From NCBI GenBank assembly GCA_025360185.1, contig JANYCR010000193.1, positions 1 through 33,315 on the forward strand: DNA of 33,315 nucleotides, written 5' to 3'. The notes under the pieces are model-generated. The model searched no databases. It was not told the DNA's origin and worked only from the letters and a program-made list of their open reading frames with translations. The stretch's first letter is position 1. Every line of letters starts with the position of its first letter. Shown here piece by piece: positions 12,128-17,285 of the stretch. The DNA is from Leptospiraceae bacterium. Its GTDB lineage: Bacteria; Spirochaetota; Leptospiria; Leptospirales; Leptospiraceae. Both the position numbers and the translations under genes were made by a program.

Positions 12128-15100
12128 ATGAGCCAAATTAAGAACATTGAAAAAATTCCAGAAGAAGTAAGAGAGCTTACAGAGTTAGGACTTGGGGAGG
12201 CTTTGAAAAAAGGCAGTCTGGGGAAAATGAAGATTAACTTCATCCAGATTGAAAACTCACTTTCTGGAGGAAAGACCGGTGCAGTCGTATTTGTAGCGCG
12301 ATATGGAGTGAAAGATAAAACAACGTTTGTTCGCGTATTAAAAATTGCTGCAAAAGAAATATGTGAATCAGAGAACGAAGGCTACGTTAAAACCCGTGAG
12401 ACGTTACTTGATATATTCAGTCAGGTGGAGTATTATACAGAAGATGAATTTGTGTCCGATAAAAATGATTACGGCATCCTTCTCTACCAAGACGTAGGCA
12501 CGGTAGCGGCAAGTGACTTAAAAGGAATCGCAAAGTATTTCACAAATAAAATCCTTAAAGCGGATAATGAGCATAAACCAGAAATCAAAGAAGAGACTGA
12601 AAAATTTTCTCGTGAACTGTCGCTTCTCATGCAGAAAGAAGTATTCCTCGGATTAAAGAAAGGTCTTTATGGAAATGTAAAAAGAAAAGATGTAAACTTA
12701 TCTGACTATTACGGAAAGAAACTCATTTCAGACAAAGTCAAACTGGGATTAGCCGAACTAAAAATAATTGAACCAACACTTCCCGATCGCGCGACGATTT
12801 TAGAATATTTTAATATCAATGCAACCTATCATGAAGTAAATTATGTGCATGGAGATTTGAATCCTGAAAATGTTCTCGTGTGGGAAAACGAAAGAGGCTT
12901 TCTTAGTTGTAAGCTCATTGACTTCGGGGAAGTGATTCCCAAGAAGAAAGATAATTTCACTCCACTCTTCTGGGATTACTCACGATTACTCGGTGAAATG
13001 ATTTTAAATTTTGTGGAAGAGATGATGAATCAACCGACCGATAGAGAGGACGCGCGCCGCGCGTCTCTACGCGATGAAAATGGACGTCCTTCTGATAATT
13101 CAAATCCATTTTCCCAAAAAGAACAAATCAATCAAATCCTAAACGATTTCTATTTAGTAGTAGAAGCCTTCTTTAAAAATGATCCATCTAAATTAGAAAA
13201 CGCAAATCCAAAGATTGAGTATATCTCTAGAATTTATTTATCAACACTGTTTGATTTTATAAACGAAGCCAAAAGCGGATTAAAAGATTTACGTAGAGCA
13301 GAGGTGATGCAGGATTATTTTTATTGTCAGATATTATTCTTTTTGTTCTTTGCGAAGTTTCAAAGAGAAAATCCTTACAAGAGGCTATTCGGTGTTAAGT
13401 TTGCTTTGAAGTTGTATGAGTTTGCAAATTCGGGCGAAGCGGGTTTACAGAGTTTAATTCTTTCGCTCGAAAAATTCTATTTTGAGTTTTCGTCCTCACA
13501 GGCTAAGAACAAACAGCCGCAGATTGGTCCGACTATAGGCGCAAGATCTCCTTTTATGGGCTTATCGTATTTTCAAGAGAAGGACAAAGAATTCTTTTTT
13601 GGTCGGGAGAAGTTTACAGAAGAACTCTTAAAAGCAATCGAAGAAAAACCAATCGTAGCACTTGCAGGAGCATCCGGTAGCGGCAAATCATCAGTAGTCC
13701 ATGCAGGTGTAATTCCAAAATTACGAGAACAGGGTTATTTGATTTTTAAATTTCGCCCAGGGGTTAATCCTTATATGGCGGCAATGAACGCCCTCCGTAA
13801 TACGAATACGAATACCATTGAACTACATACGGACGCGCGGCGCGCATCCTCTGAAGCGGTTGGACGATCCTCTGAATCGTCAGAATTAGGACGTTCGCAA
13901 TTAGAAGTAGGACGTGCGGCGCACGTCCCTACGGGGATTGATTTAATAGAATTAATTCGTAATATCCTGAAATCCAATCCTGGCAAACGCCTATTTTTAT
14001 TGGGTGATCAATTCGAAGAATTGTTTACCCTTTGCACGGATGCTAGACAACGAGAAGACTTGGGTTCGGCGTTAATTGATGCGGCTAAGGAATTTAAAGA
14101 TCGGTTTCGTTTTTTCATAACCATTCGATCCGACTTCTGGACTAAGCTTTTAGAGGATGCAGGATTCTCTTCTGTCGTTGGTGATTCTGGTGAGCATAAA
14201 GCTTTAGGTGAAAGATTCTTCTTGAGTCCGATGACTATAGAAGAACTCCGTTCTACAATTGAGAAACCTCTCGCAGTATCTAAGCTATTCATTCAAGACG
14301 GGCTAACAGACCTTATCCTAACATCAGTTTCTAGGGATTCGGGAAGTTTACCGTTGCTAGAATTTTGTCTACAGGAACTTTGGAAGAAACAAGTAGATTT
14401 GACTCTCACTTATAATGCTTATAAGGAAATTGGAGAAGTTAAAGGTGCGTTAGCCTCCTATGCAGACGAAGTTTTTTCTAAATTAATTAACAAAGACAAA
14501 GAGCTTTCAAATAAGATTTTTATTCAATTAGTTCAACCAGGAGAAGGGACTGAAGATACAAGAAGACTTGCAATCAAAAAAGATTTTTCACATATAGGAG
14601 ATTCAGATAAAATATGGAATTTAATTCAAAGACTCGCTAATGATCGTCTTATTGTTACCGGCATACAAGCCGAAACCAACGAAGAGACTGTGGAAGTTGT
14701 TCATGAAGCATTGATTCGAGAATGGGGAATTTTGAAAGATTGGATGGAAGAGGATCGTAAATTTCGAATTTGGCAAGAAGAACTACGTCGAGAATTAAAA
14801 AAATGGGAAAGCAATAACAAATCAGAAATCAATTTACTGAAAGGCTTAATGCTCATAGAATCGGAAGACTGGCTAGATAAAAATAATTCTGATATTAACA
14901 AACAAGAACAAGAATTTATTTCTTTGAGTGCTCAATCGAGAGAAAAAGAATTAGAAAAAAAACAAAAGGCTAATTCAATTTCAACGCGATTTCAATTAAT
15001 TTTCGCAGGCATGGCTCTTATATTATTAGGGATAATTGGTGTAACAGGTTTTACTTATTATAAGAACTCTATAGCAATTCTTTCTTTGACAGAAGATTTA

Positions 15101-16120
15101 ATTGATCAAATCAATAACCGCGTCATCCAAAAGACAACGAGTTATCTATTCACCGCCGTCGATATGACAGAGCTATCCTCCAAAGTTGCAGGTGAAGGTG
15201 CCAATTCGATTTTAGAGAACCAGGGACTGAACTCCCTCATGATTAATATTTTAATCCTTCACCCACAACTCACCATGTTTAACATTGGAAATGAGCGCGG
15301 TGACTTTCTAATGCAAAGACGATGGACAGATGCAACTATCGCCACAAAAACAATTGATAGATCGAAGAAAGACAAAGACCCAAAGGTCACCTGGAAGTAC
15401 CGAGACCAAAGTGGAAAGATCATTAAAGAAGAAATTGTAAAAGAAGACTATGATCCAAGAAAACGTCCCTGGTATATAGGAGCCAAAGAAAAAGAAGGAC
15501 TCTTTTGGAGTGATGTATATATTTTTAATACTGGAAAAATTCCCGGCATAACAGCATCTGCTCCCGTTCATGATGCAAGTGGAAACCTAATGGGAATTTT
15601 TGGATTGGATATTCCTTTAATTGAAATTTCCAATTTCTTGGAAGATTTACGTAAAGAAATCCAAGATAAAAAGTTTGGAAAGACAGCGATTGCGTTTATT
15701 GTAAACACAAAGGGAGACCTTGTGGCTTATCCCGATATAACACAGCCTATGATTAAAGAGCCAGATGGAAATTTTCGTTCTAGAAAAATTACCGAGTTAG
15801 AAGTAAACCCACCTATTGTTCAAGATTCCTATAAATATTTTTCGGAAACTAAAGATACAAAATTTACTTTTGAGACTGGCGGCAAAAGATACATTGCCTC
15901 TTATAAAAAATTCCCAGATACTTTCGAGAAGGATTGGACAGTCGGTCTTGTTGTTCCGGAAGATGATTATATTGGGGCGATCAAAGAAACAAACGATTTA
16001 TTACTAACGGTTACAGTCATTACGATGTTCATTTTCGGTATATTGGTTTTTATTCTAAATTCTTTGCAAAAAACATTGACTGGATTAATTGTTACGAAGG
16101 GTAAGAATCAGAAGGTGTGA
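12128..16120 (+). CDS. Membrane-anchored Cache-sensor nSTAND NTPase with N-terminal kinase-like domain
   Basis: A 1330-residue protein; AAGGA lies seven bases before the ATG. Residues ~1-300 form a kinase/phosphotransferase-like domain: RVLKIAAKEI for the lysine strand, then H241-G-D243-LNPEN248 and I-D265-F-G. Residues ~470-900 are an nSTAND1-like NTPase: SPFMGLSYFQ...FFFGRE entry motif, P-loop GASGSGKS (514-521), and Walker B-like LFLLGDQFEELF (D627). A coiled stretch then leads to a membrane segment near 955-980. A periplasmic dCache-type sensor of about 300 residues follows (RPWYIGAKEKEGLFWSDVY, GLDIPLIEI), then a second membrane segment near 1300. The inferred logic is that an outside ligand is sensed by Cache, and the NTPase and kinase-like effector act inside. 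Two palindromic REP elements lie in-frame (near residues 308-315 and 568-602). Substrate and biological role are unknown. Confidence 0.85.
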   Translation: MSQIKNIEKIPEEVRELTELGLGEALKKGSLGKMKINFIQIENSLSGGKTGAVVFVARYGVKDKTTFVRVLKIAAKEICESENEGYVKTRETLLDIFSQVEYYTEDEFVSDKNDYGILLYQDVGTVAASDLKGIAKYFTNKILKADNEHKPEIKEETEKFSRELSLLMQKEVFLGLKKGLYGNVKRKDVNLSDYYGKKLISDKVKLGLAELKIIEPTLPDRATILEYFNINATYHEVNYVHGDLNPENVLVWENERGFLSCKLIDFGEVIPKKKDNFTPLFWDYSRLLGEMILNFVEEMMNQPTDREDARRASLRDENGRPSDNSNPFSQKEQINQILNDFYLVVEAFFKNDPSKLENANPKIEYISRIYLSTLFDFINEAKSGLKDLRRAEVMQDYFYCQILFFLFFAKFQRENPYKRLFGVKFALKLYEFANSGEAGLQSLILSLEKFYFEFSSSQAKNKQPQIGPTIGARSPFMGLSYFQEKDKEFFFGREKFTEELLKAIEEKPIVALAGASGSGKSSVVHAGVIPKLREQGYLIFKFRPGVNPYMAAMNALRNTNTNTIELHTDARRASSEAVGRSSESSELGRSQLEVGRAAHVPTGIDLIELIRNILKSNPGKRLFLLGDQFEELFTLCTDARQREDLGSALIDAAKEFKDRFRFFITIRSDFWTKLLEDAGFSSVVGDSGEHKALGERFFLSPMTIEELRSTIEKPLAVSKLFIQDGLTDLILTSVSRDSGSLPLLEFCLQELWKKQVDLTLTYNAYKEIGEVKGALASYADEVFSKLINKDKELSNKIFIQLVQPGEGTEDTRRLAIKKDFSHIGDSDKIWNLIQRLANDRLIVTGIQAETNEETVEVVHEALIREWGILKDWMEEDRKFRIWQEELRRELKKWESNNKSEINLLKGLMLIESEDWLDKNNSDINKQEQEFISLSAQSREKELEKKQKANSISTRFQLIFAGMALILLGIIGVTGFTYYKNSIAILSLTEDLIDQINNRVIQKTTSYLFTAVDMTELSSKVAGEGANSILENQGLNSLMINILILHPQLTMFNIGNERGDFLMQRRWTDATIATKTIDRSKKDKDPKVTWKYRDQSGKIIKEEIVKEDYDPRKRPWYIGAKEKEGLFWSDVYIFNTGKIPGITASAPVHDASGNLMGIFGLDIPLIEISNFLEDLRKEIQDKKFGKTAIAFIVNTKGDLVAYPDITQPMIKEPDGNFRSRKITELEVNPPIVQDSYKYFSETKDTKFTFETGGKRYIASYKKFPDTFEKDWTVGLVVPEDDYIGAIKETNDLLLTVTVITMFIFGILVFILNSLQKTLTGLIVTKGKNQKV
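13048..13070 (-). repeat. REP element A, in-frame inside the nSTAND receptor gene
   Basis: GGACGCGC-GCC-GCGCGTCT forms an 8-pair stem (one G-T) with a three-base loop. It is followed by CTAC, the complement of the GTAG head found on the other copies. It is read as DARRASLR. It lies between the kinase-like and NTPase domains, in a linker. A partial copy with GGACGTCC follows at about 13082. Confidence 0.8.
13831..13932 (-). repeat. REP cluster B, in-frame inside the NTPase domain coding region
   Basis: Four GGACG-headed units start at 13831, 13862, 13889 and 13910. The last is a full element (13910-13932): GGACGTGC-GGC-GCACGTCC, a perfect 8-pair stem, followed by CTAC. The first (13831-13849) has a 7-of-8 stem but no CTAC. 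The second is a six-pair hairpin GACGAT/ATCGTC. The cluster adds about 34 serine/arginine/glycine-rich residues between the P-loop and Walker B. The full element is read as GRAAHVPTG, a different frame from element A. Confidence 0.8.
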
Positions 16121-16367
16121 CTTAGCCACAAAAGAAAATCCTACTCCCGAAGAATTAAAAGAAGCCTTGGAGTATTCGAAGAAAGCGAACGATCTAAATG
16201 AGGATAACGCGAGTTACCTCAACACCCTCGCTGAAGTCTATTTAAAGTTAGGCGATAAATCAAACGCGAAGAAATTTAATGATATGGCGAAGAAGATTGA
16301 GGCGGAGGAGAAGAAGGATGCGGAGTTAATGAAGGGGATTTCGGAGAGAGAGGGGAAGTTGAAGTAA
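16121..16367 (+). pseudogene. TPR protein C-terminal fragment
   Basis: The open frame starts at a TTG at 16089, inside the nSTAND gene, and has no plausible start or ribosome site after it. The translation from about 16119 (DLATKENPTPEELKEALEYSKKANDLNEDNASYLN, given in part) resembles the last TPR unit of a longer protein: LATxxNPT..., then YLNTLAEVYLKLGDKSNAKKF. It ends in a charged helix. It may be the 3' remnant of a lost gene. Alternatively it may be the old C-terminus of the nSTAND receptor, separated by a frameshift just before 16120, since it is in a different frame and follows directly. Expression is doubtful. Confidence 0.5.
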
Positions 16368-16391
16368 TACGCAACGGTTAATGAAGAATTA

Positions 16392-16418
16392 CCCCGTAGG
16401 GACATCCGGCGGGACGTT
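16392..16418 (+). repeat. REP element C, upstream of the RAYT gene (degenerate)
   Basis: CCCC-GTAG (16396-16399) is followed by GGACATCC-GGC-GGGACGTT. The head and loop match the other copies, but the stem has mismatches and an extra G. It is in the same orientation as elements D and F. Confidence 0.65.
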
Positions 16419-16474
16419 CTCAAATAGGATAACGTTGTGAATAACGTCCTAGATTACGTTGACGTTATTTGTTT

Positions 16475-16506
16475 TATAGATGACGTGATTTGTCGTATAG
16501 AGGACG
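16475..16506 (+). repeat. 32-bp direct repeat, copy 1
   Basis: This 32-bp unit (TATAGATGACG ... TAGAGGACG) recurs at 16955-16986 with three differences. This copy lies just before the likely RAYT start and supplies the apparent N-terminal extension of the open frame; the second copy is inside the gene next to element E. Confidence 0.75.
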
Positions 16507-16517
16507 CAATTTTAAAA

Positions 16518-17222
16518 ATGGATTATTACAAACCAAAATTTTATAATAGAAAATCGCCGAGATTGCAAGGATATGATTATTCTAGCGCGGGATATTATTT
16601 TGTTACTGTTGTTACAAAAGACAGAGAACATTTATTTGGCAAAATTTCTGATTCTAAAATGGTTTTAAATGATCTCGGCAAAATAGTCCAAGAAGAATGG
16701 TTACGATCCTTTGAAATCCGAAAAGAATTATTCTGTGAGGAATATATCATTATGCCCAATCACATTCACGCCATTATTATACACGTAGGGACGTCCGGCG
16801 GGCGTCCTAAATTAGGCGGAGGTTCTGAAATTCCAAACGACAACGAAAATCCAAACGATAACGAAATTCCAAACGACAACGAAATTCCAAACGACAACGA
16901 AATTCCAAACGATAACGAAATTCCAAACGATAACGGAAAACAGGACGTAGCCGGTATAGAGGACGTGATTTATCGTATTGAGGACGTTCGCCGAACGTCC
17001 CTACGGGGCGGAAATAATAAAAATTATTTGCCGAAATCTATATCTTCATTTTTTGCAGGATTCAAATCTGTTGTTACAAAACGCTACAATGAATTGCAGC
17101 AAACTTCTGGTTTAACTGTTTGGCAATCTCGTTACCATGACCATATCATTCGCGATGAAAAAGAATTTTATTATATTAAGGCATACATTCAAAAAAATCC
17201 CCAAAATTGGCAAGACGATTAG
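16518..17222 (+). CDS. REP-associated tyrosine transposase (RAYT, Y1/HUH family)
   Basis: RAYTs are single-strand HUH nucleases thought to move REP palindromes. The frame opens at a GTG (16437), but the first 27 codons come from repeat DNA. The ATG at 16518 starts MDYYKPKFYNRKSPRLQGYDY, where family members begin. Seen next are SAGYYFVTVVTKDREHLFG and the HUH motif MPNHIHAIII near residue 84. C-terminally come FFAGFKSVVTKRYNEL and VWQSRYHDHIIRDEKEFYYIKAYIQKNP, which carries the likely catalytic tyrosine. Between the halves, residues ~88-165 are repeat-encoded: REP D, six copies of (I/N)PNDN(E/G), a 32-bp repeat and REP E. This linker varies among RAYTs, so activity may survive. REPs C and F flank the gene. 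No ribosome site is evident. Confidence 0.85.
   Translation: MDYYKPKFYNRKSPRLQGYDYSSAGYYFVTVVTKDREHLFGKISDSKMVLNDLGKIVQEEWLRSFEIRKELFCEEYIIMPNHIHAIIIHVGTSGGRPKLGGGSEIPNDNENPNDNEIPNDNEIPNDNEIPNDNEIPNDNGKQDVAGIEDVIYRIEDVRRTSLRGGNNKNYLPKSISSFFAGFKSVVTKRYNELQQTSGLTVWQSRYHDHIIRDEKEFYYIKAYIQKNPQNWQDD
16785..16807 (+). repeat. REP element D, in-frame inside the RAYT gene
   Basis: GTAG followed by GGACGTCC-GGC-GGGCGTCC, an 8-pair stem with one G-T pair. It is read as VGTSGGRP and is followed by a CTAAATTAGGCGG tail like that of element F. It sits directly after the HUH motif coding region, in + orientation. Confidence 0.82.
16830..16937 (+). repeat. 18-bp tandem repeat, six copies, coding (I/N)PNDN(E/G)
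   Basis: Six head-to-tail 18-bp units based on ATTCCAAACGACAACGAA, with silent GAC/GAT variation and one ATT-to-AAT change. Because the unit is a multiple of three, the frame is kept. It lies between REP elements D and E in the RAYT linker and probably varies in copy number between strains. Confidence 0.95.
16955..16986 (+). repeat. 32-bp direct repeat, copy 2
   Basis: Matches 16475-16506 at 29 of 32 positions. Its last five bases are the first five of REP element E (GGACG), so the unit may be part of a larger composite element. Confidence 0.75.
16982..17004 (-). repeat. REP element E, in-frame inside the RAYT gene
   Basis: GGACGTTC-GCC-GAACGTCC, a perfect 8-pair stem, followed by CTAC and GGGG. 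It is read as DVRRTSLRG, the same frame as element A in the nSTAND gene. It is inverted relative to elements C, D and F. Confidence 0.85.
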
Positions 17223-17230
17223 AACGATTA

Positions 17231-17285
17231 CCCCCGTAGGGACGTGCGGCGGCACCTCCTCAATTAGGCGGCACGTCCTCTATTC
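17231..17285 (+). repeat. REP element F with duplicated right arm, downstream of RAYT
   Basis: CCCCC-GTAG (17236-17239), then GGACGTGC, loop GGCG, GCACCTCC with one stem mismatch. The right arm plus tail is tandemly duplicated: 17248-17266 and 17267-17285 agree at 16 of 19 positions. It follows the RAYT stop by nine bases and may form a strong RNA hairpin ending that transcript. Confidence 0.8.

Follow-up and report, generated by a model that had tools for sequence, protein, structure and literature searches.

A subclass 2.4-like RAYT gene with in-frame GTAG hairpins, and a local REP family shared with its nSTAND1 neighbour, in a Leptospiraceae bacterium

The window analyzed here is a 33,315-nucleotide stretch of a Leptospiraceae assembly (GCA_025360185.1, contig JANYCR010000193.1). 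It carries an nSTAND1 NTPase gene followed by a RAYT transposase gene, with REP hairpins inside both and on either side of the latter. The features are as follows (window positions).

12128-16120, plus strand: gene for an nSTAND1 NTPase with a dCache domain, 1330 aa (Pfam PF20703, 2e-100; PF02743, 3e-17), two loops of which carry REPs
13048-13070, minus strand: REP A, in frame in the nSTAND1-dCache gene, read D-A-R-R-A-S-L-R, the same frame as E
13831-13849, plus strand: REP B1, in frame in the nSTAND1-dCache gene, with the same arms and a decayed GTAG
13907-13932, no strand assigned: REP B2, in frame in the nSTAND1-dCache gene, with GTAG on both sides (a "double foot")
16396-16419, plus strand: REP C, 5' flank of the RAYT gene, imperfect (4-nt loop, one A.C mismatch)
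16437-17222, plus strand: RAYT (TnpA-REP) open frame, probable start ATG 16518, 234 aa, with HUH motif MPNHIH and the catalytic Tyr in KAYIQKNP
16785-16807, plus strand: REP D, the first in-frame REP of the RAYT linker, translated as V-G-T-S-G-G-R-P
16827-16935, plus strand: 18-bp tandem repeat between D and E, 6.1 copies, encoding (E-I-P-N-D-N)n
16955-16986, plus strand: 32-nt segment next to E that matches 16475-16506 in the RAYT 5' leader at 91% identity
16982-17004, minus strand: REP E, the second in-frame REP of the RAYT linker, translated as D-V-R-R-T-S-L-R and opposite in orientation to D
17236-17259, plus strand: REP F, 3' flank of the RAYT gene, imperfect (4-nt loop, one C.C mismatch), with a 19-bp near-duplication after it

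A short TPR-like ORF (16089-16367), possibly a gene remnant, overlaps the end of the nSTAND1-dCache gene.

Translation of the RAYT frame is uninterrupted, with both the HUH and the Tyr motif present, and the start is most likely ATG 16518 because relatives start near an RxSxRLxxYDYS stretch. Among 55 aligned sequences, H82, H84, and Y223 are invariant and W202 is nearly so, the HUH, WQ, and Tyr columns being invariant or almost so throughout. A broken RAYT is ruled out by the open frame and the retained catalytic residues. The protein matches NCBIfam NF047646 (REP_Tyr_transpos) in two stretches (E = 3e-16, 59.5 bits), which is below the 80-bit cut-off, a naming criterion rather than a biological one; Pfam, Y1_Tnp included, gave no match at 1e-3. 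We attribute these missed cut-offs to an insert of ~80 residues, because a profile (A1) built with the window RAYT among its members gives the protein 220 bits. In the AlphaFold model, the core has a pLDDT above 90, while a linker of ~80 residues, which separates the strand at 82-89 from the helix at 175-194, is predicted to be disordered (about 35-51 over residues ~100-170), and the best PDB match to the fold is 4er8, TnpA-REP bound to a REP hairpin. HUH and Tyr lie 144 aa apart, versus 82 to 84 aa in two paralogues from the same genome. The window protein is an HUH/Tyr RAYT with intact active-site residues; the sub-cut-off profile match, the conserved motifs, and the fold bear out the first-pass annotation, which had named it a RAYT, and the predicted disorder and extra length agree with its description of the linker as variable.

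REPs D and E both occupy the interval from the HUH to the Tyr motif, in frame, and C and F flank the gene, as that annotation had placed them. D reads GTAG-GGACGTCC-GGC-GGGCGTCC, with one T.G wobble, and E reads GTAG-GGACGTTC-GGC-GAACGTCC, with perfect pairing. The anatomy first proposed for every complete copy (GTAG, an 8-nt arm, a 3-nt loop, an 8-nt arm) holds for these two but not for C and F, the latter each having a loop of 4 nt and a single mismatched pair. The RAYT gene is nonetheless flanked by GT[AG]G hairpins in the manner of a REPtron, by way of these two imperfect copies. C and F share one orientation, a 37-nt stretch around C (16392-16428) is 84% identical to 17232-17268 around F, and the 3' arm of F sits within the 19-bp near-duplication. 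D and E form inverted repeats of 29 nt (86% complementary) that bracket the 18-bp array, for which Tandem Repeats Finder reports 94% matches and zero indels. Excision or expansion altering the RAYT protein, another suggestion of the first reading, is plausible by way of this array.

Identification of the hairpins as GTAG-tagged REPs has held up. The window contains 4 strict GTAG hairpins, whereas 300 dinucleotide shuffles averaged 0.33 and never exceeded 3. Across five copies, 95% of the cells in the stem alignment show pairing, which is lost when the partner columns are slid. Two of the eight stem pairs change on both sides (G-C, C-G, and U-A at position 7; C-G, U-A, and U.G at position 6), so that the covariation noted earlier is confirmed as pairing kept while arm sequence shifts, in a small sample of five copies.

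Copies A, B1, and B2 were absent from the first list of elements. In nSTAND1 homologues from the same genome and a congener, the loops that bear REPs in the window gene are short, without insert, or filled by other palindromes. The second loop of one homologue (L138) holds the palindrome GTAGGGGACGGTCGCGACCGTCCCCTAC, and the first loop of another (L143) holds GGAGAAGGCGAGAAATCGATTTCTCGCCTTCTCC; a further loop carries palindromes in both (in L143, GTAGAGACAGGTCTCAGACCTGTCTCTAC) but lacks them in the window gene. These loops hold different palindromes across homologues and are therefore insertion-tolerant sites used by several families. L138 and L143, the nSTAND1 genes of genomes G007 and G000, carry several unrelated perfect palindromes in frame in these same loops, one of which is 46 nt long (GACTCTATCGTAAGGACTTGATTAATCAAGTCCTTACGATAGAGTC) and has no GTAG tag.

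The arm family of the window comprises seven copies, all within 4.2 kb (13048-17259). With up to 2 mismatches allowed, no copy was found elsewhere in the 5.83-Mb assembly (623 contigs, hence fragmented, with 7% contamination), nor, save for one weak and probably chance match, in seven further genomes from the taxonomic family. The many genome-wide copies that characterize a high-copy REP family are thus not seen for these arms. Double-foot palindromes of other families are nevertheless present in members of the genus, in numbers of up to about 50. On a G000 contig (G000:C241:994-1017 and 2214-2241), GTAG hairpins of another family (GTAGGGACAGGTCGCGACCTGTCC) lie within DNA methyltransferase-like ORFs, in frame, or next to them, and read as the peptide VGTGRDLSLR/Q. 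Plasmid and phage collections yielded partial, distant matches only, and a literature search found no mention of the peptide VGAGFKPA. The first-pass annotation had held that absence of other copies in the genome would speak against its interpretation. Outside the 4.2 kb, such absence is literally what we found, yet the REP reading stands because the neighbouring gene has three more in-frame copies and because the layout recurs, with other arms, in 71 of 92 related genes.

That survey covered 92 genes: 79 came from named genome records of many phyla, and the other 13, among them the window gene, from the window's taxonomic family. Searching genome contigs with the single window protein found no relatives; a profile search found them. 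A GTAG hairpin lies in the HUH-Tyr interval of the 71 genes, versus 0.05 of 92 expected from shuffled linkers, and about a quarter of the related RAYTs are without one. Hairpins lie N-terminal of HUH in 12 of the 92, C-terminal of Tyr in none, and outside the gene within 1 kb in 30. The best Y1_Tnp loci of the phylum are IS200-like in appearance, and 0 of 20 HUH-like ORFs surrounding them had an internal hairpin. At 12 of 22 loci, an internal arm is identical to that of one of the gene's own flanking REPs, the corresponding figure for other loci being 3.6%; arms differ at 1.4 of 8 positions within one linker versus 3.7 between loci. Forward hairpins use phases 0 and 1 (50 and 22 cases, respectively), and the phase that would make the GTAG a TAG stop is never used. 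Two individual RAYTs show further features: L034 (G007:C199) has double-foot REPs both before HUH and in the linker, and the C-terminal tail of the RAYT L027 (G005:C191), AGITGVRAGSEPAPTSTK, seems repeat-derived, yet no hairpin there passed the scan.

In a quick tree built from core columns, many branches of which are weak, the window RAYT groups with RAYTs of Bacteroidota and Fibrobacterota (SH-aLRT 98) and apart from those of its own genome. This grouping suggests a horizontal origin, and the window RAYT was probably acquired in that way.

Taken together, the RAYT fold, the in-frame REPs, the arms common to the inside and outside of the gene, and the recurring layout among relatives make it very probable, in our judgment, that the window holds a subclass 2.4-like RAYT whose cognate REPs accumulate locally and in frame in disordered loops. 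The shared arms, the recurrent layout, and the linker model also make self-insertion into a tolerant linker, as first suggested, the best-supported reading. Judging by its family, the window RAYT most likely recognizes and moves these hairpins. It would most likely recognize the GTAG and hairpin in single-stranded DNA and would move or copy the hairpin over a short distance, the movement being, we infer, mostly local. Insertions that kept the frame and fell in disordered loops would survive, and hairpins would consequently collect in the RAYT linker, the gene flanks, and two nSTAND1 loops. Alternatively, gene conversion or slippage instead of transposition could have filled the linker. The absence of its arms from the rest of the genome could also mean that the arm family is young or dead rather than locally acting, and the assembly is fragmented. 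Extending the local-accumulation reading to the whole clade, one might suppose that these RAYTs spread hairpins mainly in cis, over a few kb and in frame, and that enzyme and target travel as one self-sufficient ORF that seeds peptide segments in neighbouring genes after horizontal transfer; we regard this extension as speculative and rather unlikely.

A different explanation is that the internal hairpins are kept for regulation, the RAYT binding them in DNA or mRNA to damp its own expression, in which case they would be selected and not merely tolerated. Internal REPs are indeed more regular than flanking ones in the clade (71 versus 30 of 92), and 88 distinct paired hairpins occur across related RAYTs. 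However, the hairpin scan required pairing, so this diversity alone does not show that pairing is under selection. Moreover, hairpin presence changes at least 19 times and phase at least 13 times on the quick, weakly supported tree, a quarter or so of the relatives do without, and the nSTAND1 neighbour, which encodes no transposase, carries the same hairpins. We therefore consider regulation an improbable reason for their presence. Less probable by far is that the hairpins encode a useful peptide module and are palindromic only incidentally. E, A, and B1 do share a frame and the peptide D-[AV]-R-R-[AT]-S, but D and B2 give unrelated peptides, relatives use two forward phases and many different hairpins, the AlphaFold model shows no structure in the RAYT linker, and two-sided changes maintain the pairing; the two phases and the differing peptides led us to reject an explanation at the peptide level. 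Chance low-complexity or GC-rich hairpins in a variable linker, which the unrelated 18-bp array might bring to mind, are contradicted by both sets of shuffles and by internal arms that match the gene's own flanks, leaving this explanation next to no probability.

Local, in-frame accumulation of REPs beside a RAYT bears on a wider problem, in that neither the way REPs spread nor the part of RAYTs in moving them has yet been settled. With copies in the transposase and in the next gene, a family limited to 4.2 kb offers a clean case for comparing occupied and empty sites. It also illustrates how protein loops gain in-frame segments from palindromic DNA, where nSTAND1 genes of the genus hold several unrelated palindromes.

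Rickettsia palindromic elements (RPEs) are not known to be related in sequence to the window hairpins. Both are in-frame palindromes, and in the window a RAYT sits alongside. To our knowledge, the E. coli TnpA-REP is without the long linker insertion, unlike the window RAYT. Its substrate is nevertheless a GTAG hairpin, and its structure (PDB 4er8) is the one closest to our model. The E. coli REPs are described as imperfect palindromes with a bulge, and the enzyme is described as processing single-stranded REP in vitro (PMC8266576). Palindromes tagged with GTAG, some of them wholly inside ORFs that they do not break, have been reported (BMC Genomics 2013, PMC3733652), as have, in work cited there, RPEs in frame in many ORFs; the intragenic cases stressed in that account are genes of DNA synthesis and repair, whereas the hosts in the window are the RAYT itself and an nSTAND1 gene. 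A RAYT with in-frame target hairpins is already described and not new: according to Quentin et al. 2018 (PMC6006769), REPs in frame between HUH and Tyr are what sets TnpA-REP subclass 2.4 apart. By that described feature and its variable linker, the window RAYT is subclass 2.4-like. A private 4.2-kb REP family with copies in a neighbouring gene was not encountered in the parts of PMC6006769 and PMC3733652 that treat these elements, and it is this family, together with a neighbour gene whose homologues bear other palindromes at the same loops, that makes the locus of interest. As far as the account of subclass 2.4 in PMC6006769 goes, the window shares with it the HUH-Tyr core, the flanking GTAG hairpins, the REPs in frame in the HUH-Tyr interval, a linker whose length and sequence vary, double-foot REPs, and a distribution scattered over many phyla, including Bacteroidetes and Cyanobacteria; it differs in that its arms are confined to 4.2 kb and also lie in frame in the adjacent nSTAND1 gene, and in that D and E bracket an 18-bp tandem array.
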